Assembly: GCA_000381585.1 (NCBI GenBank) | Contig: KB906733.1 | Coordinates: 372,001-436,000 of the forward strand | Direction: 5' to 3' | From: Acidobacteriaceae bacterium KBS 83 | GTDB taxonomy: Bacteria; Acidobacteriota; Terriglobia; Terriglobales; Acidobacteriaceae | DNA length: 64,000 nt | Part shown: positions 42,480 through 62,119 of the stretch, piece after piece | Layout: the number at the start of each line of letters is the position of its first letter | How positions within the stretch are numbered: the stretch's first letter is position 1 | Position numbers and translations under genes: made by a program | Notes under the pieces: model-generated | What the model was told of the DNA's origin: nothing | Database searches by the model: none | The model's input: the letters and a program-made list of their open reading frames with translations, nothing else

Positions 42480-45400
42480 CTATTCAGACGCCCTCGTTTT
42501 TTGCGGCGAGAACACCTTCTGAAGAATATCGCGCAGCGGTTCCTCAGCAGCGGGTGGCGGCGATGAGACCGAGAGCGTGGCCGCGGAGGGGCCGCCTGGC
42601 GTCGGCGCATCCGGGTGGATGACCATCGTGACCGGAAGGGGTGTGTCCGCTCTCTGCGGATTGTGAAAAAGACTGTGATATCCGAGGCTGCGATAGCTCT
42701 CAAACTGAGACTCGCTGAACCATTGGTTGAGGGTAGTCTCGTTCGGAAATTCCTCATGCTCTCGGTTATAGTTCAGAACATCTGCCGGTTCATCGCCGGT
42801 GACGCGAGTCTTAATGTAAATGATGGTGCCTTGTTCATCATCTTCGGGATAGGTGATGGTGCCCTGAACGAAGTGCGCGGGGATGCGTGGCCGACCTGGG
42901 ACAGAATCGGAGGTGGCCAGGCCTGGATCCAGTTTGGCGAGATTCAAATCAATCTCCACGCCGAAGTCCACGCGGCACTTGCGAATGGCCGAGCCGATGC
43001 CCTCGAAGGAGTTTGAACAATCCTGCTCGGCATCGCATATGAGAATGCGCCTGCAACGTCGCCGCACCAGCTCATAGAGGCCCATATTGTCGAAGTGGCC
43101 GCCATCGGTCAGGTAGACGTAGTGCGACATATCAGTAGCACGCCCCAGCAACTCACTGAACAGGTTCCATAGGGGAAACAGCGGAGACGGCGAACTGAAG
43201 AGTCGAATGGTGCTTGTTATCCGCGGATTCTTGATCCACCAACCCAGCCGTACATTGAACATGGTTAGCAGAAAAGCCATTGCCGGGTCGGAGTGGTATC
43301 CCATGTCAGGACTGACCGCAGCGCCCGAGATTGCGACAGCCGAATGCATGGGGATGCCGCGCCCTTCATACGCAAACTTGCGAGTAGACACGAAGCCGTT
43401 GTAGCTGTGGTGCCTTTTCTCCTTCGTACCGGAGTCTGAAGTCCAGCCTGGACTGTAGCCGGAGTAGAGCGGTGTGAAAGCGAAGCTCGCCCCTTTGCGC
43501 TCCTGCCATGCCAAATCCTGACCAAAGGTCAGGTTGACGGTGGTGCAAAAGATGGGGAAGGGACCAGGGTAGGGAGAGACATCCGCGATCTGCTCAGCAG
43601 GAATCCCCGCGCTGCGGGCCTGTTGAAATCTGGCTGGCAGCAGATCGGCGACGCGAATTTCGCCATCGCTCTGAGCGAATCCAGTAAAGCGATTGGGGCG
43701 GCGGTGAGGGTAGGAAGCGCCGGAGTAGCAGCGTGCCAGCCGGTCGCGATAGAACGCGTGCATCGAGAAGTCGTTGATGTCCAGACGGAACCCAAACAGG
43801 AGAGTGGATGCAAGGAAAGCGAGGAATGTCCAGATTAACCCCCAGCCCCAATCTCCGCCGAATGCATTCAATATCATCTGCAGCATCTGCGAGAGGAGAA
43901 TGACAATGCCAATGATGAAGATGGGCGGCCCGATCTTCACGAGGATTTTCATGATGAAGCTGCTGCTATCACCTTTCCCGGAGCTCTTTTCGCTGTTGCC
44001 CGCCACCACACCGCCGACTGTTCCGCCGACCCAGGTAAACAGAGCCGTCCATTGTTTCCAATGCCAATACTTGGTGGAAGTACTCCAAAACAAACGGAAG
44101 ATGGAGGATCCAAGGAGGGAGAGGCCACCGATGCCGACCCACATAAGGGAGAGCAGAAAGGCCATTGCCCGTAATCGCGCCATAGCTTCGCGAAGACTGC
44201 CGTCAGTGCGACGTCCGACTATACCTGCTCCAAGCACAAGCGCCAGGAAAAATGCCGACAGCACACATACAGGCAATAAGACCACGGCGATCTGTGGGAG
44301 TTCCTCAGGCCGCCGGAAACAGAGCCAGAAGATCCCCATGCGAGTTACATAGAGTGCCGCCCATGTGCTCGCCGCGCCCACCAGTGATCCCAGGAAGCAC
44401 CAAAAAGCGCCAAATCCTGGCCTGCTTGCAAGCGACGCCAGCCCTGACGATAGGCAGAAGGCGAAGGTGAACAGCAGGAAAACAATCTCCACCAGAAGGG
44501 CGGAATCGTCGATATGCAACCACGTCGGATATGAATACTCACCGAATAAGGACGGACGCTGGGATAATTCTGTCCGCATGTCGCGACTGGGGAAACCGTC
44601 GGCAGTCTCGCTCTCTTGTTTCCCAGACTCGCCCTTCGCGCTGGCTTGTCCGTTGTTAAAGAGTTGAGAGCTATGGGCGCTACGATTTTGCGTCGCGGCT
44701 GATCCCACGAACGACGCTTGATATAAGGCTGGCGAAACGATGCCGGCGATACACGTCAACAGACATAACAGCAACATCCATCGACTGACGCCGCTTCGGT
44801 CGGCAGCGTTCCTGATTTTTGGCGCAGATATTTTCTCCTGACAACCTGGATCGTCGGGATCAAGTCTCCCTTGACGTGCGATGCGCAATTCGGAGATCAC
44901 CAGCCAGCAAGAACAGGCCCCAAGGCCCACGATCGAGAGCGAAGGTAGCAGGTATCCAGAGAACGGAGGCAGGCTCCAGGGCGCCCATTTGTACAAACGG
45001 TGCAAAGTGGCAAAGCCACCTAGTCCTCGAAGCAAATGTGGAATGAGGAGGAAAGTGCATATCAACGACACGAGTGTAAGTTGATTGAGAAAGGTATTTC
45101 GCAGCCAGATCGAGACCATCACCCAGGTGTCGGTTGTGAAGAGTCCTTTGTTTGGGGTTAGGTAATTGCTGAACCGACGCAACCATCGAATCGGCTCCGG
45201 TTGCTGCGTCATGGCGCTGCTACTTGCCACAGCCTCCTGCGGAAGGGGCTTCAGTTGGTGCTGGACCTCTTGCAGGGGCGGTACAGCCGTCGATGCGGCT
45301 GAGGAACTTTGCCCCGGCGCGGACCGCTCTGTCGCTGTTCCGTCGCTGAGCAGGCAATTCCGATTGTAGAGCCATGCCGCAAGAAACTGGTGGATGTATC

Positions 45401-45959
45401 CGCCTCCTGAGACAGTGGATAGGTAGTCGAATTTCTCGAGCAGCTCGAGCTTGGCCAACCCCTGTAATACTCCAAGGTTGAAAGTCGCACTACGTATTCC
45501 ACCCCCTGAGAAACAAAGCCCGCTGCTGTTCGCGGTCCTGGCAAGTCGATAGATGTCTAGAGCTGTTGCGTCACACATTGCTGGTGACTTGTCGTCGAGA
45601 GGGAGATTGCAACCGGCATCACACTTTCCTCGCGCAATCAGCTCCTGCTCAAGAAGCCACACGCTGGGGGTGTAACTAGTGCAGGAAGCGGCAATGGACT
45701 GCAGCCGGGGACTGATCTCCAAGCGTTTGGCGAGCACCTGCCACGTAAGCGGTTCCCTAAGAATTCTGGCGCGTTCCACACACGTCAGCGAATTGCTGAA
45801 CGTGTCTCTGTAGCCCGGCAGCAGTACTATGGCGGCAAGGCGCCGGCAGTAGTGACGTGCGGTCTCGGCCTCATTGACACGTGTGAACAGGTCGCGCACG
45901 GCGGCCATCATTCCTTCGTGCTTTGTCCTCTTTTTAGAGGACGCGTCTCCAGGTGTCAT
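42480..45959 (-). CDS. patatin-like phospholipase with multi-pass membrane insertion
   Basis: 1,159 residues. The patatin core is split. SGGGIRSATFNLGVLQGL (near 151-168, oxyanion loop) and STVSGGGYIH (nucleophile Ser near 184) stand near the N-terminus; the catalytic Asp in YLTDGGHFDNMGLYEL is near 950. The elbow reads T-V-S-G-G, lacking the first Gly of GxSxG, so activity should be tested. Between them lies an insertion with about eight to ten hydrophobic segments (SLICTFLLIPHLL, LPSLSIVGLGACSCWLVI, LIWTFLAFLASTLLFGF). It likely hydrolyses a lipid at the membrane. It starts 98 nt below the heme peroxidase gene on the same strand, probably in one operon. Confidence 0.82.
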   Translation of the reverse strand: MTPGDASSKKRTKHEGMMAAVRDLFTRVNEAETARHYCRRLAAIVLLPGYRDTFSNSLTCVERARILREPLTWQVLAKRLEISPRLQSIAASCTSYTPSVWLLEQELIARGKCDAGCNLPLDDKSPAMCDATALDIYRLARTANSSGLCFSGGGIRSATFNLGVLQGLAKLELLEKFDYLSTVSGGGYIHQFLAAWLYNRNCLLSDGTATERSAPGQSSSAASTAVPPLQEVQHQLKPLPQEAVASSSAMTQQPEPIRWLRRFSNYLTPNKGLFTTDTWVMVSIWLRNTFLNQLTLVSLICTFLLIPHLLRGLGGFATLHRLYKWAPWSLPPFSGYLLPSLSIVGLGACSCWLVISELRIARQGRLDPDDPGCQEKISAPKIRNAADRSGVSRWMLLLCLLTCIAGIVSPALYQASFVGSAATQNRSAHSSQLFNNGQASAKGESGKQESETADGFPSRDMRTELSQRPSLFGEYSYPTWLHIDDSALLVEIVFLLFTFAFCLSSGLASLASRPGFGAFWCFLGSLVGAASTWAALYVTRMGIFWLCFRRPEELPQIAVVLLPVCVLSAFFLALVLGAGIVGRRTDGSLREAMARLRAMAFLLSLMWVGIGGLSLLGSSIFRLFWSTSTKYWHWKQWTALFTWVGGTVGGVVAGNSEKSSGKGDSSSFIMKILVKIGPPIFIIGIVILLSQMLQMILNAFGGDWGWGLIWTFLAFLASTLLFGFRLDINDFSMHAFYRDRLARCYSGASYPHRRPNRFTGFAQSDGEIRVADLLPARFQQARSAGIPAEQIADVSPYPGPFPIFCTTVNLTFGQDLAWQERKGASFAFTPLYSGYSPGWTSDSGTKEKRHHSYNGFVSTRKFAYEGRGIPMHSAVAISGAAVSPDMGYHSDPAMAFLLTMFNVRLGWWIKNPRITSTIRLFSSPSPLFPLWNLFSELLGRATDMSHYVYLTDGGHFDNMGLYELVRRRCRRILICDAEQDCSNSFEGIGSAIRKCRVDFGVEIDLNLAKLDPGLATSDSVPGRPRIPAHFVQGTITYPEDDEQGTIIYIKTRVTGDEPADVLNYNREHEEFPNETTLNQWFSESQFESYRSLGYHSLFHNPQRADTPLPVTMVIHPDAPTPGGPSAATLSVSSPPPAAEEPLRDILQKVFSPQKTRASE

Positions 45960-46057
45960 AAGACCTCGGTGCGCCTATTTGCGGAGCAAGAAACAAATAT
46001 CTTGAATATGTGGCCTTCAACTAGGCGATTTCAGATAGCTCGAGTAAGAGCCAGGCC

Positions 46058-48931
46058 CTAGTCTTTGGATTTGAAAGCATCATCGGATTCAGCTCCGGGC
46101 CGAGGCTTCCACGCAAGGCTGTAATACTGGCCGCGGTCACGAGCCCACGGATCGAACGCGTTGACGACCCCTTGCAATTCCGGAGTTAATTCAGGGATGT
46201 TGCGCTGCAGTACTCGTTTCATGGGAGATACGGGCTGCTTATGGCCATTGGGGCTTCCCGCTTCCATCACTGCCGGGCCTGGACCGTTATGGTTTACCCA
46301 GTCAACACCAAGCGTCGTGTAGAACTCAGGACGAAACGAGGAAGTAAAGAAACGATCGCTGAAGAGTCTCCGCGAGGCATTAAGAATGAAAACGACAAAC
46401 TGAGTCTCTGAAATGGCAAACCCATGTGGACGCCGGTACTCTGCCAAATATCCAGCAGCTGTGTCGACATCTTCAATGTTATCGATCAGGGTTCCATTCG
46501 GATGTCCGAGACAATCATTAATGGGTGTTCCATCACCGTTCACTTGTGCATCAGTGATGACCTTCGATGCGTCGCAGATATGCTGCCCATAAACTTCGCG
46601 GAGTGTTTGAACCGCGTCCTGTTGTTCCAGAGCATCGGCCGAACCGGCGGGAACCCCCGGATCCTTGAAGTCGTCAAAGCTGGTTAGTTGACGCAATCCA
46701 TATTGCCTTCTGAATTCATTAAACCGTGGGACGCCGTGTTCGCGGTCGCGGATGATATCGAGCGCTACTACATCAATCTGCTGCGTCTTACTGTCAAGGC
46801 GGCCCAACTTCAGGTTTTGCAAGAAAAGCGGCGAATTATGCAACGTGAGAAGGCCTAATCTTTGACGACCCAAGGTTAGACCCCAGTTTGCAAGCCCCAT
46901 GGATTCCGTATATGGCGTTGCCTTACCCTGAAATGTTTCGACGACGGAAATACGCTTGGCAATCCTGTTTGGATCAACTTTGAGATCTCGATACTCAAGC
47001 AGGTCGGGAACCAGTGGATGCAATCGATATACGGAAACGAACTCCTCTGGGAAATTGAACGGAGAGCCGAAGTGATTTACACCTCCGTTGATAGATTGTG
47101 GATTGGTGATGTCATATCCGGGAGCAGTGCTACCAAGACCAAAGATTCCCGGCCCAGAAGCGAATACGGAGTACCATTGCGACGATTTGGCGACGTTTTT
47201 TGATTTACCGAAGTTCTGCGTGATGACATCGCGCAACGCCTGTGACAGAAGACCGCCATTTGCACCAAGGAGTCCATTCCAATTTCCGTTCATGCCAAGG
47301 TAGAGCGGATCGTTGTAGAGCAGCTGTGGAGTCCACTCAGTGGTATGGATTTTGGCGATTTCGGCTGCGACGACCAGTCGGGCAATCTCGAAAAGTTGGT
47401 CTGGAGTTACATCCCGATAGCGGATGACAGCTTTTGGCTGCGCCGGATCGCGAAGGCCACAATCAGCGTTAGGAGTACGCGCTGCGACTCGCCGAAACTC
47501 AGCGACAAAAGAGTTGTGTTCGCGCGCGAAAAGATTATGAAGGAAGCTCAAACCGACGGTCCAGTTGTCAGGAAATGCGGCAGCTTCCTGGCCTGCCCAT
47601 TCGGGATTGATTGGATCTTCCGGCCCAAATATAGGTAGAAGTCCTGGCCCCGGTTGCCCGGCTGTTTGAACAAGGAGGAATTTTGCGGGGTCGCCCGGAT
47701 CACGCTTCACACGGCGCCGGGAGATGTCGTCGAAGCCGTAGAGCTGAGAGGTATCCCACCAGGCCGTGTTGTTGTTGCTCATCGTCTTTGGCGAGCGAGC
47801 TAAGTAGGTGCGGCCGCCAGAAGAAAAGGAGCCGGGAGCAGAGTCTTGGGCCACGTATCCCTTGTCTATCTGATCGTCAGGACGACAACCCAACTTCTGA
47901 ATGTCCTCTGATGTTAGCGGTTGCTCGACATTGTTCACGAGCTTAGTCTCGCAGCCAACCTTCATGTACGCGGTCTGGTTATGACCTTCCTGGAGGTGGG
48001 AGAACCAGTCGTGAGTCATGAACTGGATCCAATAGGCGGCAAGCACATTAAAGAAGGGTGCCTTCCTGTAATCGCAGTTGGCGGTCGGCGAGTCGTCGGG
48101 GAGACCATATCCGGAGCGGCACTTATCGGGATCCGATTGAATGCGCGTGAACAAACGACGGCTGATCACCTGCGGGTCGGGCTGCAGCAGCGACAAGCGA
48201 TCGCCATGACGATTGCGGGTAAGGGCGTTCAGCCCTTCATCTGGAAACGACGTCTCGAACTCTACATTGCGCGCGAATAGCATGCCGGCGGACCCCATTG
48301 CCGGATTCAGAACGTCATTGCAGATGCCCGAGACTGTTCGCCAACGGACGAGGTCCCCCTTGCACACCTGAGGTCCATCGCCCCCGACTTCCCGGTAGAA
48401 TGGGCTTTCCGGTTTCAATCTCATCTCGGGCCAGACCTTGATGACAGGTCCGTGCAATCCATTCTGGCCCTGGACATACTGGACATATGTTCCCGAATTG
48501 TCGAAGAGATTGAACCTGACCAATTCAATCCTTTGTAGCTCCAGGTCGAGTAATGCTCCGGCAACGCCGCGTTGCGCCGGGAGTTTCTTTGAGACAAAGC
48601 CAGTTGGGAGAGATGCCAAATCCCCCGTGCCCCAGTAGTTGCTCCAGTCCACCCACGGTGTGCCACGAAACTCAAGCGCCCGTTCGCCGCCGCGACAGAG
48701 TGCGGTTGCTTCGGGAACCTTGCCTTGAAATCGGCGGTCCCGGCCCCCGGGTATGTTCAGCAGATTGCCTTGTTCGACGACCATCCGAGCGCAAGCGAGC
48801 AGAGCGTCAGCTTCTTGCTTGTGGGGGGGCTTAGAAGAGGGCGTCTGGGCGCTGACACACGAGGACCTTGTCACCAGCAGACAGATGGTTGCTACTACTA
48901 CCTGAAGACCAAAATTCCGAGGAAACATCAT
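46058..48931 (-). CDS. secreted alpha-dioxygenase/cyclooxygenase-type heme peroxidase
   Basis: About 957 residues from the ATG at 48931 (a GGGGGGA run stands just upstream; a second ATG follows at once). Signal peptide LQVVVATICLLVTRSSCVSA. The catalytic domain has IQFMTHDWFSHLQEGHN (distal His, near 305), WWDTSQLYGFDD, VYRLHPLVPD (proximal His near 637) and DREHGVPRFNEFRRQYGL. The Tyr at proximal His minus three (Y-R-L-H) is the position of the catalytic Tyr of cyclooxygenase and plant alpha-dioxygenase and is absent in ordinary peroxidases. This points to fatty-acid oxygenation rather than simple peroxidation; biochemistry is inferred. Next to a patatin-type lipase gene, a fitting fatty-acid source. 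Confidence 0.85.
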   Translation of the reverse strand: MMFPRNFGLQVVVATICLLVTRSSCVSAQTPSSKPPHKQEADALLACARMVVEQGNLLNIPGGRDRRFQGKVPEATALCRGGERALEFRGTPWVDWSNYWGTGDLASLPTGFVSKKLPAQRGVAGALLDLELQRIELVRFNLFDNSGTYVQYVQGQNGLHGPVIKVWPEMRLKPESPFYREVGGDGPQVCKGDLVRWRTVSGICNDVLNPAMGSAGMLFARNVEFETSFPDEGLNALTRNRHGDRLSLLQPDPQVISRRLFTRIQSDPDKCRSGYGLPDDSPTANCDYRKAPFFNVLAAYWIQFMTHDWFSHLQEGHNQTAYMKVGCETKLVNNVEQPLTSEDIQKLGCRPDDQIDKGYVAQDSAPGSFSSGGRTYLARSPKTMSNNNTAWWDTSQLYGFDDISRRRVKRDPGDPAKFLLVQTAGQPGPGLLPIFGPEDPINPEWAGQEAAAFPDNWTVGLSFLHNLFAREHNSFVAEFRRVAARTPNADCGLRDPAQPKAVIRYRDVTPDQLFEIARLVVAAEIAKIHTTEWTPQLLYNDPLYLGMNGNWNGLLGANGGLLSQALRDVITQNFGKSKNVAKSSQWYSVFASGPGIFGLGSTAPGYDITNPQSINGGVNHFGSPFNFPEEFVSVYRLHPLVPDLLEYRDLKVDPNRIAKRISVVETFQGKATPYTESMGLANWGLTLGRQRLGLLTLHNSPLFLQNLKLGRLDSKTQQIDVVALDIIRDREHGVPRFNEFRRQYGLRQLTSFDDFKDPGVPAGSADALEQQDAVQTLREVYGQHICDASKVITDAQVNGDGTPINDCLGHPNGTLIDNIEDVDTAAGYLAEYRRPHGFAISETQFVVFILNASRRLFSDRFFTSSFRPEFYTTLGVDWVNHNGPGPAVMEAGSPNGHKQPVSPMKRVLQRNIPELTPELQGVVNAFDPWARDRGQYYSLAWKPRPGAESDDAFKSKD

Positions 48932-49496
48932 TCCCCCCATGCGGTGCGGCGGACTACGGCTCCGCATCGCGCGTGGAATTTCGCGGCGGAACCCGCATCA
49001 AATTCCGTTCAACTGCCGGTAATTCGCGCCAACGGACACTATGAGCCAGAAGGCGTTGTCTGTCGGAACTTCGCGACGGTCAGGAATAATTCATATTTAC
49101 GATGGTGCTCGGTAGCCCAGAAACGTTTCGTAAAGGTGGGGCCGACCTTCTTCCTCAACGCAACCGCACACGAACCCCGGATCTCCTGTAGCCTTTATCA
49201 CCCGGTGCGTCGGGATGCCGACCGGAGAGTAGCACTCTCCGCACCAAGTCGCAACAGTAATTGCGACTGAGAGCGACTCAGTCAGGAGTGCTTGTCTGCA
49301 GGCTATGCCGAGCTAGTCTCAGTTCAGGATTGACTTTCGGGGATACAGCTGACTAATATCTGGCCGCTAGGGCGCAAACGGCAGTTTCGCCGCAGCCTAC
49401 CTTCTTCTCCCCCTCAGGTTTTATGAAACGCAGACTCGGCTCCTTGCACTATAAGGCAGAGCCAGGCTGACGGCGGTCGTTTCGCGGAGTGCATTC
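48932..49496. other. 565-nt gap between divergent genes
   Basis: Between the peroxidase (-) and the flavoprotein oxidase (+). It includes a 7-bp hairpin (GACTGAG / CTCAGTC, 49265-49283). Frames in this area lack start context and family match, and I treat them as spurious. Confidence 0.45.
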
Positions 49497-50849
49497 ATGC
49501 CAACCAACACCGTGACGAACTGGTTTGGAAATGTAGTTTCGCATCCCAGTGTGATTGTCGATGCCCACTCGGTCGAAGACATTGTCGCAATCATGAAAGA
49601 TCGCGCTACTTATCCTTCTCCGGTACGTGCGGTTGGCTCCAATCATTCAACCGCACCGTGTGGCGTTGCTGATGGTGGCACGCTGATCCGGATGAAGATG
49701 AACCAGATTCTTAATATCGGGCCGGACAGCCTGACAGTACAGTCCGATGCTCTGCACATCGACATGGCAAAAGCGCTGGAGGCGAAGGCCCTCCAGTTTT
49801 ATGTGAATACAGAAATCGGCAGTTTATCGGCCGGTAGTGCATCGTGTGCTGGAACAAAGGACGCATCTTTCCCCGGCCAGTATGGGCAAGTAGGCTCCTA
49901 TGTGACCGGCGTGAAAATGGTACTGCCGAGCGGAGAATTGTTGGAAGTCACCGAGGAGACTCAGCCCGAGCTGATGCAAAAGGTGCGATCCAGCTATGGA
50001 CTGTTCGGAATCATCTACGAGGTTACATACAAGATCCGCCCTTTGACGCCGATGCATGTGCATCACAAGACCTTCAGCCTGGAGGAATTCATCGCTAGCT
50101 TGCCAGAATTAATTGCGTTGAACTACTCAATGATGTTCTACATCTTTCCATTCGATAACAAGATCACCATCGAATTCCGCAAAGACAATCCCAGCGCAAC
50201 GGGTGAACCGAACCGCGCGGCGTGGGCATTGAGAAATCATATTTGGGGCACGTCGGGGCCGAAGTTTGGGCATGACATCGAACAGAACATCTCAAATCCG
50301 ACGATTCGCTATGGCATTATCGATGCTTTCAATGCCGCATGGCGCCTTCAACTGGAAACGATTGTATCGAGCGACTATACAATTCCACCGGACCAGATCA
50401 TTCACTATCCGACGGTATCCGATGACAGCCGCTACACGTTTAGCCTCTTCGCATTTCCCGAGGCGAGGTATCCGGAAGTGCTTGCCGAATTCTTCAAATT
50501 TGCCAAGGAATATTACTCCCAGAAGGGGTACCGCTCGAATCTTCTGTATGTCGGGTATCGCATCGCTCAGGACCAGAAGGCGCTGCTGTCGTATTCTTTC
50601 GATGGAACGGTCATGACGATCGATCCAGTGTCCACGGCAAATGCCGGATGGGACGAATTTCTTGGCGCGTACAATCAGTTCTGCAATGAACGTGCCGGCC
50701 TGCCTCTTCTCAACCAGACGCCAGGCCTTATTGCGGCAATTGTCCAAAAAGCGTACGGCGACCGTTGGAAGGCTTTTGCAGCGGCTCGCAAAGAGTTCGA
50801 TCCGAATGATCGGCTGTTGAACAACTATTTCCGCGAGCTGCTTACTTAA
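49497..50849 (+). CDS. FAD-dependent oxidase, aldonolactone-oxidase-like (VAO fold)
   Basis: 450 residues. N-terminal FAD_binding_4 features: PSVIVDAHSVEDIVAIMKD, RAVGSNHSTAP (site that carries covalent flavin in some relatives), then GTLIRMKMNQIL and GSYVTGVKMVLPSGELLEV. The C-terminal part (FCNERAGLPLLNQTP, FDPNDRLLNNYFRELL) resembles aldonolactone/alditol oxidases. No signal peptide. Likely oxidises a sugar or lactone and makes H2O2; the link to the neighbouring peroxidase is only by position and is inference. Divergent from the peroxidase gene. Confidence 0.82.
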   Translation: MPTNTVTNWFGNVVSHPSVIVDAHSVEDIVAIMKDRATYPSPVRAVGSNHSTAPCGVADGGTLIRMKMNQILNIGPDSLTVQSDALHIDMAKALEAKALQFYVNTEIGSLSAGSASCAGTKDASFPGQYGQVGSYVTGVKMVLPSGELLEVTEETQPELMQKVRSSYGLFGIIYEVTYKIRPLTPMHVHHKTFSLEEFIASLPELIALNYSMMFYIFPFDNKITIEFRKDNPSATGEPNRAAWALRNHIWGTSGPKFGHDIEQNISNPTIRYGIIDAFNAAWRLQLETIVSSDYTIPPDQIIHYPTVSDDSRYTFSLFAFPEARYPEVLAEFFKFAKEYYSQKGYRSNLLYVGYRIAQDQKALLSYSFDGTVMTIDPVSTANAGWDEFLGAYNQFCNERAGLPLLNQTPGLIAAIVQKAYGDRWKAFAAARKEFDPNDRLLNNYFRELLT

Positions 50850-51124
50850 GCTCGGCCAGTCAAATCAGCTGGAATGCACCACGATACACTTCGGTCGAAA
50901 CGGATTGGATGATCGGAATCACTTGTGATCGCAGCTGAGGGGTTCTGACCGATAAATTGCTTCTATCCCTGGTCCGGGGCTAAGACCGTCGAGGATTAGG
51001 TGGCATATAAGTTCCCGCACTAAGGATAGATAGCGCTACAAAAGGTGCTAACGTAAAGCAACGCTCTCTGTTCCTGAACTATCCGGTCCGTTTATGAAAA
51101 GAACTCTTTTCAGGGTGGATCTTG

Positions 51125-54100
51125 ATGAACAAAGGACTAGGATTTACCACAGTTGGCACTGTCCTCTTGGCTGGATTGTTTTTTCAAGTCAAGCCCGGCG
51201 AGAGCCACCCATCTCAGCAGAGCAGCCCGCCCACGGTGAAAGCCGTATCCGGCGAGGGTCCGTGGCTCGCGTCGTGCAAGTACTGGTCTGCTGTGCAATC
51301 GGTCCGCCCCCCGGTCAAGGCTCCCGCTCCGGATTTCAACATCTTGCCGCATGAGACCGGTGCCAAGGTGGAATCCGCCATCAAAGCATCGACTTCGGCT
51401 GACTCTGCCTGCCCGGGCAACGATGAATGGGGTATCCCGTGGAACGCTCCACACACTCCCGAGGTCAGCGCCGTCATAGCGACGGTGCCGGATCCTATAC
51501 ATAGCCATCTGGCACTCGACTTTGATCGCGCGATCGATGCTATTGTTCTGGCTGCTGCAGATAATCACTATCTCGGCAGTTATTACTGGCTGCCTTGGCG
51601 CGCGCCAGCGGTCGCCCTTTCCGCCAGCGAGGGATCGCCCGGCCCTCCTTCAAAGGATGATGACGGAGCAGGCGAACGGCAGCCCGGTCTCATCATCCTT
51701 CGGTATGCGCCCCATGGATCTCCGGGGAGCGAATCGCCTGAGGCTGCTTACTATCGGGTGGTCTATGTCTTCCTTGTTGGCGAAACCCCTGCCCTCGGAG
51801 TTAATGGAGCTCAGCTTCAAAACGCCGTTCAATACGAGCAAATGTTGACACGCCACAACCAGTGGTTGGCCCCAAGCTCTCTGCAACCGAGTGGACAGGG
51901 GCAGATCACGAAAACGAAGCTTTCAGTTATAGGCCCTTTCTTCTCCGGCTCCGCTGCCTCCCTGCAGCAGGGAATTGAAGCTGCAGTCGGCATGCTCGGT
52001 GATGGGACTAACGCTTCCATCAACGGCATAACCAGCACAACCGTCGCGGCGAAGGAGCTCGACCGACCAAATAAACACGTTTTCTATCGATCTTTTGGAG
52101 AAAATGCAAATTTTGAACAACAAAGTTTTCTCGCCTCCCTTGAGTGCGCGGACTATGACCTGAACAGAGTCGCCGTGCTCTCCGAGGCGGGAACTGTCTT
52201 TGGCACTGCCACGAGTTACGGATCGACGGCTGCACAGGGGAAGTGTACGGGTTCGGGCGCGTCGCCTCATGTTTCCAGAGGAACGGTGCTCAATCTTCGC
52301 TTCCCGCGCGAACTCTCGCTCCTACGCAATGCCCAGCCTAGCCAGACCAGTCAATCGGAAGCTTCGACCGCGCCTACGCCTTACCTAAACTTCTCGCTCA
52401 AGGATTACAGCACCGGCGACACGGTACCACGCTTCTCCATCACTCAGAGTCCGCTCTCACTTGAGGCGCAACTTATGGGCATCGCCCACCAGCTGCAGCG
52501 GGCGCGCATCCAGTTCATTCTGATTTCGGCATCGAACATCCTTGATGATATTTTTCTAACCCAATTTCTTCACCGTGCCTGCCCGGATTCACGGATAGTT
52601 CTTTTCGGCGGTGAAGACCTTCTTTTTGAACGCGATGGCGAGAATCAGCCTTACATCGGATCTATTTCTATATCGCCTTATCTGCTTAACTCGCTCGACT
52701 CTGGAAGCAAAGTTCAATGGCTACATTCGGATTACCAGGCTGAAGCGTTCTATAACGCAGCGAGCTTCACATTCTGGGACCCATCCGCTGATCCAATTCC
52801 CAATCTCGCCGGGTACCGAAGCTACCCTATACCCCCGGAGGGCCGTTCAACGACTTCAGCTCCGCGGACTCAGTTTATGCAGATTCCCCTCTGGGTCACG
52901 GCAATCGGGAGCGACGGCTATTATCCTCTGGCAATTCTTCGCTGGTGCGGCAGCGATGGAAAGCAAATACTGCCAACGATTTACCCAAGTGCTCCTAAAT
53001 CGGAAATGGAGAAGACGTGTGCAGAAACGAACGCAGCAATTCTGGACGACACTCCTGATCACTCTCAACAGGAGGTCTGGAGATATCTTCCAGAATCCAT
53101 TAACCGTAATTCGGGTATCGCACCTTCACTTGTCTGGACAGTAGTTGCCACCATACTTCTGATTCTCTGCCTGCTCCACATAGTTCTGGTTTGGGCGGCG
53201 CAGTTCTGGTCGCCTCTGACTCGCGACCTTGCAGTCGATCAGAACGATCAACCTCGGCGCCGCTCCGTCTATTTGAATATCGGCACCTCTGTGCTTGCGA
53301 CGATGGCTTTTGTGACCGCCTACCCTCTGATCCGCGTTGGTCACTATTATCACCTCGCGCAGCCAAGTTATTTCATCGCATGGTTCATATTCATTGCAGC
53401 AGCCGCGGCCTGTCTCTCTACCATCATCAAAACGTGGTCCTATCACTATCACAAGTGCTGCCCCGAATATTCATTCTTCAATTCAGTAGCTGGCCTGGCC
53501 CTCCCTCTCACGGTTGCCTTCTGGATAGTTATCTGTCGAAGCGACAATATCGGAGGCCAGCATAGCTACGCTGGGCTGTATTTCAGCTATCGATGCCTCC
53601 AGCCGCTAAGTGGGGTCTGCCCCCTGCTTCCCATACTCTTACTATTATTTGGTTGGTATCTCTGGTCCATATGTCAAACGGCCCGTCTGCGCTTTTCCAA
53701 TGTTCACCGGCCGCGTCTCGCTCGTATCGTGCCCTTGCCAAGCTGCTACTGGCCAGGTTATGCCGCTTCTCCTCTCTATGTCCCTGACAATGCGCTGGAG
53801 AAGTGCGAGCGGCCGAACGATTCTTGTCTCTACAGAAATATCACGTGCTTACTCATTACCGTCGAAGTTGTCCGAAGCTTCTGTAGGAATCTCACGAACG
53901 ATTCGCGGGATGTCGTTCGCTCGATCGCGTCCTGGACTGAGAAGAAGCTCACCATTGTTCTGGCAAGCGTGTACCTGTTGCTGTTCGCCCTCTGCGTCTT
54001 CGCCAGCCAGATTCATAGTCTCGATCGCTTCCTGTTTACACCTGTGCTTGCTTCGATCTCCGCCAGCATCGGCCCACATACAGTTATCTATCGCGGTCCA

Positions 54101-55222
54101 ACGCTCTACGAATTCCTGATTACCTCACTCTTTTTCCCTCTCATCATGATCGCCCTTTCCGGCTGGCTTCGCGCCATTTTGATCTGGGGCTCGCTTCGTA
54201 GGGGGTTGCTGGAGCCCTTGGAACGATTGCCCATCCGGTTTGCATTTACGCGCTTTAAGGGCGGCAGTTGGGTAAGCATGCTGAATCAGAGCGGCTTGCA
54301 TATTCGTTGGCGAGATATGAGCCGTTCTACGGAGTCCATCCGCCAGCTTGTTCACCATCCTTATGTGCAGCAGGCTCCGTGGCTGAAAGCGCAGCTTTCT
54401 AGAGAGTACGAAGAGATCAACATAGCCATCCGTGATCTTTTCGACAGGATACAAAACGCAGGCGGGCAGATTACCGATGCCGTCGCCTCGACAATTCCGC
54501 CGTTATCCAACTCCCCTCATGAACGTGATAACGACCGTGTCGCTTCTTGTCTTGAAGATACCTGGGATCGCCCAAAGCCACCCGGAAACGAGGATCTCAG
54601 CAGCATTTACTCGATCGAAGAGGGATACGCGAGTTTCTGCGGCGTTCTTCTGGACGCCGTCCTCATTCCTTACTGGGACCAAATACGGACTGGCCATGTC
54701 GAGGAACCTGACCCTACGGACGACGAAGATGCGAAGTCCTCGGGGGCCACGAAAGAAGAAAAATGTGCGAAATCCGAAGTGGCAGACGAGGAGATAAGCC
54801 AATGCAGGCAGTCGTTCATACACCTCGCAGAAGAGCTCATTGTCATTCGTTACGTCGCGCTTATACGCGCCGTCCTCGTCAACATTCGTTATCTGATGCT
54901 GTTTGTCTCTGCTGCTTTCGTACTCGCTATCATCGCCTGGAATTCCTACCCTCTGCAGCCACATCGGCTCATCGACTGGTGCTTCACACTCCTGTTTATG
55001 TCTATCGGTGTTGGTTTCGTCACCGTTTTCGCGCAGATGCACCGCAATCCCATACTTAGCCGTATCACCGATACAACGCCCAATAAACTCGGCTCCGCCT
55101 TCTACATCCGTATTGCCGCCTTTGGAGCCGTACCGGTTCTCACATGGCTGGCCTACCAATTCCCGCAGATAGGAGGCAGCCTATTTAGACTCCTTCAACC
55201 CGGTTTACAAGTGATGAAGTGA
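51125..55222 (+). CDS. 1,365-residue membrane protein with periplasmic-binding-like ectodomain
   Basis: The start is ATG 51125 (AGGGTG 8 nt upstream; a TTG one codon earlier is less likely). After an N-terminal hydrophobic segment comes an extracytoplasmic region to about residue 660. Within it SVIGPFFSGSAASLQQGIEAA (near 268), HVFYRSFGENANFEQQSFL and IQFILISASNILDD (near 465) resemble type-1 periplasmic-binding/receptor ligand-binding domains. About ten membrane helices follow (668-690, 714-737, 749-771, 788-806, 831-850, 941-962, 995-1022, 1245-1268, 1281-1303, 1327-1346). A large, partly acidic soluble segment lies between helices 7 and 8. No enzymatic motif is seen. A receptor or transporter role is inference. 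The next gene is coupled. Confidence 0.7.
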   Translation: MNKGLGFTTVGTVLLAGLFFQVKPGESHPSQQSSPPTVKAVSGEGPWLASCKYWSAVQSVRPPVKAPAPDFNILPHETGAKVESAIKASTSADSACPGNDEWGIPWNAPHTPEVSAVIATVPDPIHSHLALDFDRAIDAIVLAAADNHYLGSYYWLPWRAPAVALSASEGSPGPPSKDDDGAGERQPGLIILRYAPHGSPGSESPEAAYYRVVYVFLVGETPALGVNGAQLQNAVQYEQMLTRHNQWLAPSSLQPSGQGQITKTKLSVIGPFFSGSAASLQQGIEAAVGMLGDGTNASINGITSTTVAAKELDRPNKHVFYRSFGENANFEQQSFLASLECADYDLNRVAVLSEAGTVFGTATSYGSTAAQGKCTGSGASPHVSRGTVLNLRFPRELSLLRNAQPSQTSQSEASTAPTPYLNFSLKDYSTGDTVPRFSITQSPLSLEAQLMGIAHQLQRARIQFILISASNILDDIFLTQFLHRACPDSRIVLFGGEDLLFERDGENQPYIGSISISPYLLNSLDSGSKVQWLHSDYQAEAFYNAASFTFWDPSADPIPNLAGYRSYPIPPEGRSTTSAPRTQFMQIPLWVTAIGSDGYYPLAILRWCGSDGKQILPTIYPSAPKSEMEKTCAETNAAILDDTPDHSQQEVWRYLPESINRNSGIAPSLVWTVVATILLILCLLHIVLVWAAQFWSPLTRDLAVDQNDQPRRRSVYLNIGTSVLATMAFVTAYPLIRVGHYYHLAQPSYFIAWFIFIAAAAACLSTIIKTWSYHYHKCCPEYSFFNSVAGLALPLTVAFWIVICRSDNIGGQHSYAGLYFSYRCLQPLSGVCPLLPILLLLFGWYLWSICQTARLRFSNVHRPRLARIVPLPSCYWPGYAASPLYVPDNALEKCERPNDSCLYRNITCLLITVEVVRSFCRNLTNDSRDVVRSIASWTEKKLTIVLASVYLLLFALCVFASQIHSLDRFLFTPVLASISASIGPHTVIYRGPTLYEFLITSLFFPLIMIALSGWLRAILIWGSLRRGLLEPLERLPIRFAFTRFKGGSWVSMLNQSGLHIRWRDMSRSTESIRQLVHHPYVQQAPWLKAQLSREYEEINIAIRDLFDRIQNAGGQITDAVASTIPPLSNSPHERDNDRVASCLEDTWDRPKPPGNEDLSSIYSIEEGYASFCGVLLDAVLIPYWDQIRTGHVEEPDPTDDEDAKSSGATKEEKCAKSEVADEEISQCRQSFIHLAEELIVIRYVALIRAVLVNIRYLMLFVSAAFVLAIIAWNSYPLQPHRLIDWCFTLLFMSIGVGFVTVFAQMHRNPILSRITDTTPNKLGSAFYIRIAAFGAVPVLTWLAYQFPQIGGSLFRLLQPGLQVMK

Positions 55223-56286
55223 TGAATCCTACACCGCAGGATAAGAAAATCGACGAAGCGGCCGGAGAGAATAAAATTCCTCCGATGTCGACAGAATCCA
55301 TCCGACGTTATCAATCTGTAGCTAGAGATTCGCCAGGTCCGCGTATGAGCGCATGGATCGTGCTGGTTATGCTCGGAATGGTCGCGGTTCCGGCAGCCGT
55401 CACCTTACATACTGTGCAGGTTCCCGCGGCCCTTAAGGTTTCCAGTGCGAATCCCACACCGTACGGCTACAGCTGGAGCCTGCTCTTATTTGTGGTTCCC
55501 ATTGTGGTGATTGCAGGCTGGTTTCTGCCTAACGAAAATGTTCGGATATCTCGACGTGCCTTCTGGCGAACAATCGCCATTCTGGTGCCGTTGGGATTTG
55601 GGCTTGATTTCTTCTGTGCACATCGCTTTTTTGTCTTTCCTAATGCCGGTGCGACTCTAGGGATCGGGGCACCGGCGCTAGGCGGCAGTGTTCCTTTGGA
55701 GGAATACGTCTTCTATTTCACCGGATTTCTCGCAGTGTTGCTGATTTATGTCTGGACAGGCGAGTACTGGTTGGCTGCCTACAAGGTGCCGGACTATCCA
55801 GGCGAGGCGCAACAAGTGCAGCGGTTGCTGAGGTTCCATCCTACTTCGCTACTGATCGGAGCTATCCTGATCGTGGCGGCACTTCTCTACAAGAAGTTAC
55901 GGTCGCCTTTTCCCGAGGGGTTTCCCGGTTATTTTGCCGTGCTGGTAATCGGGGGAGTGATCCCTTCGGTCAGCTTCTTTCCGGTCGCACGGCGATTCAT
56001 CCACTGGCGTGCTTTCAGCCTGACCATCTTTATGGTTTTGCTTATCAGCATGTTGTGGGAAGCGACGTTGGCGATACCGTACGGTTGGTGGGGTTACCAG
56101 CAGAGGGAGATGATGGGTCTATCTATTGGTGCATGGACGGGGCTGCCCGTCGAAGCGGTCACGGTGTGGGTCGCTGTGACCTATGGTTCGACGATTGTTT
56201 ACGAGATCGTGAAGGCCTGGCAGGCCTCTGGCAGACCTGCGAGGGCTGCATTCCTGGGAGAGAAAGGCACGAGGGCAGAGCAATAG
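55222..56286 (+). CDS. lycopene-cyclase-domain-like integral membrane protein, two-domain
   Basis: 354 residues. The ATG shares its A with the preceding TGA stop (a GTG one codon earlier is also possible), so translation is coupled. Two homologous-looking halves each carry the cyclase-domain pattern: GLDFFCAHRFFVFPN followed by GGSVPLEEYVFYFTGF, and LWEATLAIPYGWWGYQQR followed by TGLPVEAVTVWVAVTYGS. Known heterodimeric/fused CrtYcd-type lycopene cyclases share a Pro-x-Glu-Glu motif; here the second half has PVEA, missing one Glu. It may be a divergent cyclase or a member with another function; no carotenoid genes are nearby. Confidence 0.6.
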   Translation: MNPTPQDKKIDEAAGENKIPPMSTESIRRYQSVARDSPGPRMSAWIVLVMLGMVAVPAAVTLHTVQVPAALKVSSANPTPYGYSWSLLLFVVPIVVIAGWFLPNENVRISRRAFWRTIAILVPLGFGLDFFCAHRFFVFPNAGATLGIGAPALGGSVPLEEYVFYFTGFLAVLLIYVWTGEYWLAAYKVPDYPGEAQQVQRLLRFHPTSLLIGAILIVAALLYKKLRSPFPEGFPGYFAVLVIGGVIPSVSFFPVARRFIHWRAFSLTIFMVLLISMLWEATLAIPYGWWGYQQREMMGLSIGAWTGLPVEAVTVWVAVTYGSTIVYEIVKAWQASGRPARAAFLGEKGTRAEQ

Positions 56287-56362: not shown

Positions 56363-59300
56363 TTAGTGAAAATCGTGGGAACGGGTCTCCAGAGTTTGAT
56401 CGGATAGCGGTAATAGGCGCGAGGCTTTGACATGAATCACACCATCCTGATTCTGCAAAGGACCTTCTGCGAGGATGAACTTGCTGCGTGTGACAACAAG
56501 GCGCTGCCGCTCATATAGATCGGGTGTGACGATGACATTGGCGATGCCAGTTTCATCCTCCATCGACAAAAAGATAAATCCCATTGCTGTACCCGGCCGT
56601 TGCCGTGCGATAACGCATCCGGCGGTTCGAACAAATTCACCATCTCTACGACTGCGCAATTCTTCCGCGGAAAGAACGTGTTGCCGGCGTAGCTCAGGGC
56701 GCCTATATGCAATGGGATGTCTGCCAATTGTCAGCCCGGTGCCGGCATAGTCTGCAGCTAGACGTTCTTTGGTGCTCATCTGTTGCAGTGGTGTTGCCTC
56801 GGAGACTTCGCGCAACAGCTCGCTTCTTTGGCTTAAAAGAGGGCCTTCAAGTTTTCCAGCACGTTCGACCTGCCACAGCGCATCGCGGCGATGCTTGATT
56901 CCGTCTAGCTGGTTCAGAGCGCCGATGCGTGCCAGTAGTGTCAGCTCTTTTCGGTTGAGTGACGGGATGTGCAAGGTGAGATCCTCCACAGACAGGAATG
57001 GACCGTGCTGCCGGCGTGAGAACGCAATTGCCTCACCCGATTGTTGCCGAAGCCCTTTTGCATAGCCTAGACCGATTCGAAGGGACAAGCTGCTGTCCGC
57101 CTCCTGCTCAACAGTGCACGCCCAATCTGAGATCTGGATATCAATCGGCTTTACACGCAGGCCATGTCTCTGTGCATCTTTGACCAGTACAGCCGGCATA
57201 TAAAAGCCCATCGGCTGATTGTTCAGAATGGCGCAAGTGAAGGCGGCCAGATATTTCACTTTGAAATATGCTGAAGCGTAGGCAATTAGAGCGAAGCTGG
57301 CGGCGTGCGATTCCGGAAAACCGTAAAGCGCAAACGAGCTGATGTTCTGGATGATCATTTCCTGTGTAGGAGGATCAATTTCGTTTGCTGTCATACCAGC
57401 GCGCAATTTTCCTTCGAGATTTTTCATGCGTTCCCAGGAGCGACGCATTCCCACGGCTCGGCGTAGCTCTTCAGCTTCTGCGCCAGAGAAGTTCGCCACT
57501 GTCATAGCCATGCGAAGCAGTTGCTCCTGAAAGAGCGGTACACCCAATGTCCGCTCCAACACTGGCTGCAACGAAGGATGAGGATAGGTGACCTCCTCCT
57601 TCTTCTGACGGCGCCGCATGTATGGGTGCATCATCTTGCCCACGATTGGCCCTGGCCGAATGATGGCAACTTGGACAACTACGTCATAAAATTCCGTCGG
57701 ATTGTTCCTGGGAAGCGAAGCCATTTGGGCGCGGCTCTCGACCTGAAACATGCCGACAGTATCAGCGCGTTGAAGCGCCCGATAGACGTCATCGTCTTCC
57801 GGCAACTGGGCCAGATCCACTTTGTCCCCGTAGTGCTTCGGAATCAACTCCAGACAATCTTGGAGAACAGCCATCATGCCGAGCCCGAGCAGATCCACCT
57901 TAATGATGCCGAGGTCAGAACAGTCCTCCTTATCCCATTGCACTACGGTCCTTCCCGGCATGGAGGCGCGTTCGAGCGGAACGACACTGTTTAATTGGCC
58001 TTGGCAGATCACCATGCCCCCCGAGTGCTGGCCAAGGTGGCGAGGTAGATCCTGAATGCGCATACAAAGTTCGAGATACTTGGCGATGCGCGGGTGTTTC
58101 AGGTCAAAGCCGGCATGCTGAAAAGAATGAGCCATCGTATCGGTGGCGCCGCGCCATTCGAAGTGGTTCACCAGGCTGGATAACCGCTGCAACGATTCGG
58201 GATCGAAGCCAAGAGCCTTTCCGACTTCGCGCGCCGCGGATTTGCCGCGATAGATGATGACATTGGCTGTCATGGCGGCGCCCAATTCGCCGTAGCGTTG
58301 GTATACGTGTTGAATCGCTTGTTCGCGGTTGTCCTCCGACGGGAGATCGAGATCGATGTCCGGCCACTCTCCGCGACTTTCGCTCAGGAAGCGCTCAAAT
58401 AGAAGGTCCATTCCGACTGGGTCAACCGCGGTAATTTCGAGCGCATAGCAGACTGCCGAGTTTGCGGCGCTGCCTCGGCCCTGGATGAGAATGTTGCGTT
58501 CTTTACAGAACTGTACGATGTCCCAAACGATGAGGAAGTATCCGGCAAATCCGAGCTTGGCGATTAACCGGAGCTCGTACTCGACCTGCTTCTTCGCCCG
58601 ATCAAACAATGCAGCATCACGCTTTAGGCTGTAGCGGCGAACCACGCCTTCTTCGACCCGCTTCCGCAGAAAACTATCCATGGTTTCGCCATGAGGTACC
58701 GGGTATCGAGGGAACTCATAGCCCAGATCTGCCAGCTTGAATTGCAGCCGCGACGAGAGCTCCGCTGTATTCTCGACTGCACCATGAACGTCATGGAACA
58801 ATGCAGTCATCTCGGCTGCTGAGCGAAGATGGCGCTGGTTGTTGAGTGCCAAGAGGCGACCCGCACGATCGAGTCCTGTGTGATTGCGCACAGCCGTGAA
58901 GAGATCCAGGATCTCGCGGTCATATGGAGTCGCATATCGCACACCGTTCGTTGCAAGCACCGGCAGCTTCAACGAACGAGCTATGCGAATAGCAGCTTGA
59001 TTCCGCCATTCCTGCTCACGCTCCTGATGCCGCTGAAGCTCGACGTAGACATTAGTGGAACCAAAGATGCCAAGCAGTCTCTCTATGGCTTCGCGGCCAG
59101 CTTCTTCACCACCGCGCATCAAAGCAGCAGCCAGCGGGCCTTCATCACCTCCTGTCAGACACACCAGACCGGATGCATATTGCTCTAGATCATCGAAGTT
59201 AGCAGCGCCCTCCTGTTTCGTCGTCTCCCGCATTTTGAACTGCGTAATGAGCTGACATAGATTCTGGTAACCTTTGCGGGACTTGCACAGGAGAGGTAGA

Positions 59301-59581
59301 CGAACCGGCTCGGCAACGTACTGATGGGGCAGCCAGGATGGCGGCCTGAGCAGCTGACCAAAGCTCGACACTGAGACTTCTGCACCTACATGCGCACGAA
59401 TGTCATTCAACTTCGCGCTGATATGAAACCGCGCGGAGCCGTAAACTCCATTGCGATCAAGGAGTGCCATCGCCGGCATTTCCAATTCGACCACCCGCTC
59501 AACGAGACTTTCCGGTTGTGAAGCTCCTTCCAAAAAGCTGAAGGCGCTGGCGGCGTGCATCTCAACATATCGATCAGTCAT
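56363..59581 (-). CDS. dnaE2: error-prone DNA polymerase DnaE2
   Basis: 1,072 residues, the usual length. N-terminal PHP domain (YVEMHAASAFSFLEGASQPE, PAMALLDRNGVYG). The polymerase acids are in PDIDLDLPSEDNREQ (near 410) and KVDLLGLGMM (near 560). Helix-hairpin-helix and OB parts follow (SLNRKELTLLARIGALNQL, ATANVI-like VTPDLYERQ). DnaE2 copies past DNA lesions with ImuA and ImuB and causes induced mutation. The 8-nt overlap with imuB indicates coupling. Last gene of the mutasome operon. Confidence 0.95.
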   Translation of the reverse strand: MTDRYVEMHAASAFSFLEGASQPESLVERVVELEMPAMALLDRNGVYGSARFHISAKLNDIRAHVGAEVSVSSFGQLLRPPSWLPHQYVAEPVRLPLLCKSRKGYQNLCQLITQFKMRETTKQEGAANFDDLEQYASGLVCLTGGDEGPLAAALMRGGEEAGREAIERLLGIFGSTNVYVELQRHQEREQEWRNQAAIRIARSLKLPVLATNGVRYATPYDREILDLFTAVRNHTGLDRAGRLLALNNQRHLRSAAEMTALFHDVHGAVENTAELSSRLQFKLADLGYEFPRYPVPHGETMDSFLRKRVEEGVVRRYSLKRDAALFDRAKKQVEYELRLIAKLGFAGYFLIVWDIVQFCKERNILIQGRGSAANSAVCYALEITAVDPVGMDLLFERFLSESRGEWPDIDLDLPSEDNREQAIQHVYQRYGELGAAMTANVIIYRGKSAAREVGKALGFDPESLQRLSSLVNHFEWRGATDTMAHSFQHAGFDLKHPRIAKYLELCMRIQDLPRHLGQHSGGMVICQGQLNSVVPLERASMPGRTVVQWDKEDCSDLGIIKVDLLGLGMMAVLQDCLELIPKHYGDKVDLAQLPEDDDVYRALQRADTVGMFQVESRAQMASLPRNNPTEFYDVVVQVAIIRPGPIVGKMMHPYMRRRQKKEEVTYPHPSLQPVLERTLGVPLFQEQLLRMAMTVANFSGAEAEELRRAVGMRRSWERMKNLEGKLRAGMTANEIDPPTQEMIIQNISSFALYGFPESHAASFALIAYASAYFKVKYLAAFTCAILNNQPMGFYMPAVLVKDAQRHGLRVKPIDIQISDWACTVEQEADSSLSLRIGLGYAKGLRQQSGEAIAFSRRQHGPFLSVEDLTLHIPSLNRKELTLLARIGALNQLDGIKHRRDALWQVERAGKLEGPLLSQRSELLREVSEATPLQQMSTKERLAADYAGTGLTIGRHPIAYRRPELRRQHVLSAEELRSRRDGEFVRTAGCVIARQRPGTAMGFIFLSMEDETGIANVIVTPDLYERQRLVVTRSKFILAEGPLQNQDGVIHVKASRLLPLSDQTLETRSHDFH

Positions 59582-61088: not shown

Positions 61089-62119
61089 CTTCGTCCTGTC
61101 CAGGAAGTTCGGCTATGCCAAGAGAGAGCATTCACACTTTGTGGCAGCTTGCGCAGGGGAAGAATGTTATCCGCGATCTGGGTGAACCGCTGGCGCGCCA
61201 TCTCAACATGCGACTTGATTCCTGTAAAGACGGTTATTTCATCACACAGTGCTTCCGCAGGAAGAAGTTGAAGCACCAGCTCGGCACTGCTTTTCGCACA
61301 TGGATGCTGTGTCATGAGCAGGATGCTGGACTGTGTTCTTTCTGCAGCGGCACGATATCGAAACCAGGTCGCGAGTGGCACACGTGAGACGAATTCCGGT
61401 GCCATACCGCCCATATCCAAAACCACTGCACTGAAGCCTCCGCACTGTAGAAGCTGGTCCGTAACATGCAATGCCTGCTCCATCCGCGGCCATGGTTTAG
61501 CGGAACGCGAAGGCTGGCGCCGAATTGTCGAAGAAGGCGGGTAGTTCGGCTCAAAGGTCTTCTGGGTCAATCGAGTACGACGCGGCGGTTCGGCACATCG
61601 CGGAGCAGTCGTCTCTTGTTGCAGCAGGCTGGCAACGGCATCCGAAATCCCTTTCACCTCATTGCGAGGATGCGACCCGAAGCCCCCGCCGTGCAGCCCT
61701 CTTTTAACCGGAGGAGGCGCAAAGTATCTGTCAGGTAAAACGAAATCGCGACGTGCACGTGCCGCATCCGGATGCGACACGCCACATCGAACCCAGAGCA
61801 GTCGAGCAAGATTGATACCTGCCGCGGCAGCCGTAGCTGGATCGAATGTATTCGACACATCGACCCAGGCACATACTTTTCCTATCACGGTTATCTGTGC
61901 GAGGAACGATAGGGCAACAGAAGTCCGGCCGGAACACTCCGGGCCGATCAACTCGCTGATGGCTCCGACGGGCAGACCGCCGCGCATGGCGTTATCCAGC
62001 GGCTCAATGCCAGTCGCCGCGATAGGCCGCACCATTTTCGGAGCAGGCGTAAGGGCAGAAGGGATCTTGTGCGCGAGAGCTGACTCGATTTGAAGGCGAA
62101 GGACAGAGGCTGAAGGCAT
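61085..62119 (-). CDS. imuA: ImuA, RecA-like mutasome component
   Basis: 344 residues. RecA-like N-terminus ATGIEPLDNAMRGGLPVGAISELIGPECSGRTSVALSFL, where the Walker A position is GPECSGRTS: Arg replaces the expected Lys, so ATP binding may be weak or lost. Later SAVVLDMGGM (Walker B-like) and an extended middle insert with basic residues. ImuA links RecA-like action to the ImuB/DnaE2 lesion bypass complex. First gene of the operon; the start at 62119 lies under two direct repeats and below a perfect 32-bp inverted repeat. Confidence 0.88.
   Translation of the reverse strand: MPSASVLRLQIESALAHKIPSALTPAPKMVRPIAATGIEPLDNAMRGGLPVGAISELIGPECSGRTSVALSFLAQITVIGKVCAWVDVSNTFDPATAAAAGINLARLLWVRCGVSHPDAARARRDFVLPDRYFAPPPVKRGLHGGGFGSHPRNEVKGISDAVASLLQQETTAPRCAEPPRRTRLTQKTFEPNYPPSSTIRRQPSRSAKPWPRMEQALHVTDQLLQCGGFSAVVLDMGGMAPEFVSRVPLATWFRYRAAAERTQSSILLMTQHPCAKSSAELVLQLLPAEALCDEITVFTGIKSHVEMARQRFTQIADNILPLRKLPQSVNALSWHSRTSWTGRR

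Follow-up and report, generated by a model that had tools for sequence, protein, structure and literature searches.

The explanation that best accounts for this locus as a whole, and one we consider probable, is that a secreted alpha-dioxygenase (alpha-DOX), here called POX, oxygenates fatty acids released by a lipase of the kind encoded beside it, here called PAT. The DNA comes from a soil bacterium, Acidobacteriaceae bacterium KBS 83 (Acidobacteriota; Terriglobia; GCA_000381585.1, contig KB906733.1, 372,001-436,000 of the forward strand). The window, meaning the whole stretch analysed, is 64,000 nt long, and positions are counted from its first letter. An initial annotation had described a peroxidase gene followed by a lipase gene in one operon. 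Both genes were found at the place and on the strand it gave, in the minus-strand order POX, 98 bp, and then PAT downstream; an in-frame ATG at 48931 offers POX an alternative start, which agrees with the start chosen there. No terminator-like site was seen within the 98-bp gap, and the common strand and short, terminator-free spacing are compatible with both genes lying on one transcript. The genes and intervals concerned are these:

46058..48967, minus strand: POX, predicted exported long alpha-DOX-type haem protein, 969 aa
48850..48931, minus strand: predicted Sec-type signal peptide region of POX, hydrophobic segment, MMFPRNFGLQVVVATICLLVTRSSCVSAQ
45960..46057, minus strand: POX-PAT gap, 98 bp, with an AGG some 7 nt before the PAT ATG
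42480..45959, minus strand: PAT, 1159 aa, predicted lipase of the patatin/cPLA2 fold, with about 8 transmembrane (TM) helices interrupting the catalytic domain
49497..50849, plus strand: FAD-linked oxidase (FADox; FAD_binding_4/ALO), divergent from POX
51122..55222, plus strand: BIG1366, 1366 aa, with a soluble N-terminal part and about 10 TM segments
55219..56286, plus strand: membrane protein with weak lycopene-cyclase-domain (CarR-like) similarity, 25 bits, below the 39.4 cut-off

The assignment of POX as an alpha-DOX-type fatty-acid oxygenase is strongly supported, as judged from its sequence and its modelled structure. POX contains the Pfam An_peroxidase domain (PF03098, 7e-63). Its best sequence matches among solved structures are plant alpha-DOX (phmmer; 4kvj, 4e-50; 4hhr, 1.5e-48), whereas myeloperoxidase, lactoperoxidase, and peroxinectin match near 1e-5 only. 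We aligned POX with its relatives and with rice and Arabidopsis alpha-DOX, taking rice positions from the functional residues listed in PMC8720084. The corresponding codons in the window are as follows:

48011..48013, minus strand: H319 in THDWF, distal haem His, equivalent to rice H157
47345..47347, minus strand: H541, carboxylate binding, equivalent to rice H311
47330-47332, minus strand: T546, alpha-carbon Thr, equivalent to rice T316
47018..47029, minus strand: Y647-R-L-H650, with catalytic Tyr equivalent to rice Y379 and proximal His equivalent to rice H382
46367..46369, minus strand: R867, carboxylate binding, equivalent to rice R559

POX keeps the distal His, the Tyr, the proximal His, the H541/R867 pair, and T546, as well as two channel residues and two Phe that stack on the Tyr. 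Across the family, about 80 of 80 readable members keep the equivalents of rice H157, Y379, H382, H311, T316, R559, R57, F375, and F552, a degree of conservation far beyond chance. By comparison, H311, T316, and R559 are all replaced in both proteins used as controls: a COX-like protein of Nitrosomonas europaea, for which the distal-His column is possibly misaligned and was not used, and a generic peroxidase encoded in the window's own genome. The motifs named in the initial annotation were thereby borne out, including WWDTSQLYG, which begins at residue 403, and the oxygenase class that it proposed is strongly backed by sequence, residues, tree, and fold.

The structural and phylogenetic evidence points the same way. 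An AlphaFold model of POX (pLDDT 80.6, pTM 0.87) superposes on rice alpha-DOX with Z 30.6 at 2.8 A over 578 of 611 residues, whereas the next family reaches Z 22.9 and COX about 20. Foldseek likewise gives 9e-28 for alpha-DOX versus 3e-13 for the next family. In a FastTree phylogeny, POX joins plant, cyanobacterial, actinobacterial, and rhizobial alpha-DOX in one clade (support 0.999), with COX-like proteins outside it; the split of the POX branch from the canonical alpha-DOX group is less firm (0.84), and identity to characterised alpha-DOX is about 28-30%. The fold scores and the position of the COX-like proteins led us to reject POX as a plain cyclooxygenase (PGHS).

POX belongs to a family with features of its own. 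Its members are usually 930-1000 aa long, and POX itself exceeds plant alpha-DOX by about 350 residues, with many insertions. Of 74 members, 66 scored positive for a hydrophobic N-terminal export signal in a simple hydropathy test, and a lipobox is often present. Ten Cys occur without exception in 26 of 26 members, whereas four canonical alpha-DOX, plant and cyanobacterial enzymes included, lack them; since these Cys form five close pairs in an exported protein, they suggest five disulphides. Together, the predicted signal peptides and the ten extra Cys mark the family as a distinct, putatively secreted alpha-DOX branch. At least 206 pattern-matched loci in species-representative genomes encode POX relatives. 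The best 80 of these (56-80% identity) span at least six phyla, namely Acidobacteriota, Nitrospirota, Pseudomonadota (Nitrosomonas, Methylomonas, Halomonas, Roseateles, and others), Gemmatimonadota, Campylobacterota (Sulfurovum), and Desulfobacterota. The distribution is patchy: a match was found in 5 of 150 genomes of the bacterial family, one of the five only to a short alpha-DOX. The window's own genome also holds a second, canonical alpha-DOX on another contig (C7; L002:1444-3369 / L153:8056-9981), which has Arg at the distal haem His position and lies near a RoxA-like di-haem protein of 1135 aa.

PAT is best described as a patatin/cPLA2-like lipase and a predicted hydrolase, on the evidence of its motifs and its model. 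A membrane-embedded patatin-like lipase was what the initial annotation had placed after the peroxidase, and this description holds: the Pfam Patatin domain is present (8.5e-7), and so are the TM helices and the catalytic residues. The GGGIR oxyanion motif occupies residues 152-156, with G152-G154 and R156 invariant in 26 homologues, and the catalytic residues are encoded at two distant sites:

45408..45410, minus strand: nucleophile Ser S184, in TVSGGG, invariant in 26 homologues
43104..43106, minus strand: catalytic Asp D952, in DGGHF, invariant in 26 homologues

By hydropathy, about 8 membrane helices fall between this Ser and this Asp, and the catalytic domain is thus split by a membrane insert. 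In the model (pLDDT 70, pTM 0.75), the two catalytic halves are still folded together. The closest fold is human cytosolic phospholipase A2 (cPLA2; Z 23.0 over 386 residues), the enzyme that starts prostaglandin synthesis, followed by PlpD (18.6) and then by CapE/CapV and potato patatin (15.5). With the bacterial patatins PlpD and CapV/CapE (fold Z 15-19), PAT has in common the GGGxR motif, the nucleophile Ser, and the DGG dyad; it is unlike them in its split catalytic domain and in lacking a phage-defence context. An anti-phage role was considered and rejected, since PADLOC and PHROGs gave no match for POX or PAT.

It is useful to ask how far the POX-PAT arrangement extends to other genomes. 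TM-patatins of the PAT type adjoin POX in Terracidiphilus (L024), in Terriglobia (L026/L144 and L143), and in Sulfurovum (L079), in differing order and orientation. They are found somewhere in 15 of 50 POX genomes, mostly away from POX, and beside it in only three of those examined. About 19% of genomes of the class carry one, most without a nearby POX, and at one locus (L147) a TM-patatin lies near an FAD oxidase 70% identical to that of the window, with POX absent. Strict conservation of the pair is rejected, because an adjacent TM-patatin is missing from most POX relatives; POX-PAT is a recurring association rather than a fixed pair.

Linkage to lipases in the broader sense is clearer. In a motif scan of the 80 loci, seven had a patatin no more than 5 kb from POX (L024, L026, L055, L056, L071, L079, and L088), against 0.5 expected given 652 kb of flank and 0.77 patatins per Mb genome-wide (P ~1e-6). 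The genomes behind this statistic are not fully independent; the matches span several phyla and different patatin types, and the seven proteins are of several sequence types that can hardly be aligned with one another. The density was estimated from 30 POX genomes; a patatin test on those 30 included loci whose patatin neighbour was known beforehand, and the 80-locus scan is therefore our figure of choice. Tle1-like lipases follow the same trend, with two within 5 kb of POX in the 30 genomes against 0.04 expected. One directly precedes POX in each of L019 and L022, and the L019 order of FADox, Tle1-like lipase, POX, and BIG1366 resembles the window with the lipase type swapped. Lipases and POX are thus physically linked above chance. 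The initial annotation's own ground for refutation, a gene pair not conserved outside this genome, does not apply: patatins recur near POX elsewhere, including several of the same TM type, although not as a fixed pair.

Other neighbours also recur. FADox is the partner best conserved with POX near the window; of two culturable relatives with POX, Terracidiphilus gabretensis and Granulicella aggregans, the former has FADox as well. BIG1366, which has no Pfam match, has a homologue (53% identity) immediately following POX in L019, where a gene likened by size alone (353 aa) occupies the place of the window's CarR-like gene. Further along the window, positions 56363-62119 have the layout of an ImuA-ImuB-DnaE2 mutasome, with genes resembling those for DNA polymerase III alpha, a Y-family polymerase, and RecA. 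Among near neighbours at POX loci, Pfam counts were five each for GMC oxidoreductase and patatin, four each for P450 and catalase-like proteins, three each for RoxA-like cytochrome and FAD_binding_4, and two each for lipoxygenase and Tle1-like lipase. In Methylomonas, POX is followed by a catalase-like protein whose best match is coral allene oxide synthase (AOS; 1u5u, 2e-5), ahead of true catalases. At L077:10812-16287, L075, L079, L090, and L069, AOS-like catalase-related proteins come immediately after POX, and tandem DyP-like proteins come next. The 30 POX genomes hold seven lipoxygenase genes, three of them no more than 10 kb from POX. In Nitrosomonas europaea (L074:6521-12769), and also in L056 and L067, POX, a lipoxygenase, and a COX-2 homologue (4e-70) share one neighbourhood, and GMC and di-haem cytochrome genes lie further out; this is a candidate bacterial oxylipin cluster. 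Canonical alpha-DOX loci repeat this pattern. On a plasmid of Calothrix sp. PCC 6303 (L149:5923-13671), an alpha-DOX, probably CalDOX (MZ522724) or its orthologue, shares its locus with genes for a patatin-like phospholipase and a GMC oxidoreductase. The Streptomyces locus has an FAD oxidase, a P450, and an alpha/beta hydrolase, and that of Qingshengfaniella an alpha/beta hydrolase, a RoxA-like cytochrome, and an FAD protein 43% identical to the window's.

The mechanism we propose follows the known chemistry of plant and cyanobacterial alpha-DOX, in which haem oxidation and a Tyr radical lead to alpha-hydrogen abstraction, O2 addition, and a 2-hydroperoxy acid that yields an aldehyde or a 2-hydroxy acid (PMC8720084). 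POX would be a secreted, probably disulphide-braced alpha-DOX whose haem is oxidised in the periplasm, for example by H2O2 that the conserved FADox may supply. The oxidised haem would then generate a radical at Tyr647; H541 and R867 would hold a free fatty acid, which would lose its alpha-hydrogen and take up O2. The resulting 2-hydroperoxy fatty acid would become a one-carbon-shorter aldehyde or be reduced to a 2-hydroxy acid. PAT would release the fatty acids from membrane lipid, a task that may fall to other patatins or Tle1-like lipases in other strains. We infer the substrate, the product, the H2O2 source, co-transcription, the flow from lipase to oxygenase, and the order of the steps. 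No signal peptide was seen in PAT, and its active site is therefore probably cytosolic. With POX predicted to be periplasmic, the fatty acid would have to cross the membrane, and a direct hand-over would be difficult unless flipping occurs. An oxylipin role is nonetheless well supported by the residues and fold of POX and by the recurring lipase and oxylipin-type neighbours. Bacteria of KBS 83's kind have few polyunsaturated acids, which counts against an oxylipin reading; alpha-DOX accepts saturated fatty acids too.

Other readings deserve consideration. No characterised alpha-DOX falls in the POX branch, so O2 may enter at another carbon, and POX might make, for example, 8-, 10-, or 13-hydroperoxides that feed AOS-like, P450, and RoxA-like partners elsewhere. 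The many insertions of this branch speak for such chemistry, and neighbours in other genomes normally use mid-chain hydroperoxides. However, the carboxylate clamp that places the alpha carbon by the Tyr is fully kept, T316 included, and we regard oxygenation away from the alpha carbon as unlikely. The same clamp and Tyr, being invariant, argue against POX as an exported general peroxidase that uses H2O2 from the FAD oxidase beside an unrelated patatin. That idea draws on the recurrence of potential H2O2 makers (FAD oxidases and GMC oxidoreductases) next to POX, but lipases, lipoxygenases, and AOS-like genes are enriched there as well, and H2O2 is equally expected as the activator of an alpha-DOX; it seems to us distinctly improbable. 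We give very little credence to a cluster that makes or modifies an isoprenoid or carotenoid, with POX co-oxidising and the lycopene-cyclase-like membrane protein as key partner. The CarR-like gene at 55219-56286 and the RoxA-like (rubber oxygenase type) neighbours in other genomes would fit it, but the CarR-like match falls short of its cut-off, and a gene at that place is seen only in L019 among the relatives.

Comparison with known systems places the preferred reading, a secreted alpha-DOX served by lipases, in context. Plant alpha-DOX (rice 4kvj/4kvl, Arabidopsis 4hhr/4hhs) have in common with POX the fold (Z ~30), both His, the Tyr, and the H311/T316/R559 clamp; unlike them, POX is predicted to be exported, is far longer, has the ten invariant Cys, and forms a separate branch. 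Cyanobacterial CalDOX and LepDOX (PMC8720084) have the same key residues and belong to the same clade, but they are only ~28% identical to POX, short, and without the ten Cys. The oxylipin diol synthase PA2077/PA2078 of Gram-negative Pseudomonas aeruginosa is exported and oxygenates fatty acids in the periplasm, as predicted for POX. Its fold, however, is that of a di-haem cytochrome c peroxidase rather than the COX/alpha-DOX fold; P. aeruginosa is a precedent for periplasmic oxylipin formation in a Gram-negative, with enzymes unrelated to POX (PMC5155153, PMC4496055). RoxA-like di-haem proteins are, at the loci studied, only neighbours of alpha-DOX. The animal cPLA2-COX system likewise joins a lipase to a haem-Tyr-radical oxygenase, with the PAT model nearest human cPLA2 and POX in the COX superfamily; PAT differs in its TM insert and distant homology, and POX is of the alpha-DOX rather than the COX type.

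Alpha-DOX sequences from Acidobacteria and other phyla were already known at the family level (PMC8720084), and bacterial COX-like sequences as putative ones (PMC4420034). In the open-access literature, we found no paper on the long exported POX branch or its lipase association, although one may exist elsewhere, and nothing on the POX family under NE1240, Nitrosomonas cyclooxygenase, or an alpha-DOX-patatin link. The occurrence of POX relatives beside lipases and fatty-acid-oxidising genes across many phyla points to a widespread, little-studied bacterial oxylipin chemistry. To our knowledge, bacterial oxylipin biology is founded mainly on P. aeruginosa.

Finally, it may be, though we would stop a little short of calling it likely, that many environmental bacteria, among them acidobacteria, nitrifiers, methanotrophs, Halomonas, and Sulfurovum, run periplasmic oxylipin pathways built around a secreted, disulphide-braced alpha-DOX. 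Interchangeable lipases would supply the fatty acid, and lipoxygenase, COX, AOS-like, P450, and RoxA-like partners would diversify the products, in a bacterial parallel to the oxylipin systems of plants and to cPLA2-COX. Concrete genes with which such chemistry can be tested are provided by the window and its relatives. If the proposal is true, it would bear on the origin of eukaryotic lipase-plus-oxygenase pathways and provide new secreted enzymes for fatty aldehyde production. More broadly, fatty-acid oxygenation of the prostaglandin or alpha-oxidation type would then be common as an exported trait among bacteria of ecological importance, nitrifiers and methanotrophs included.
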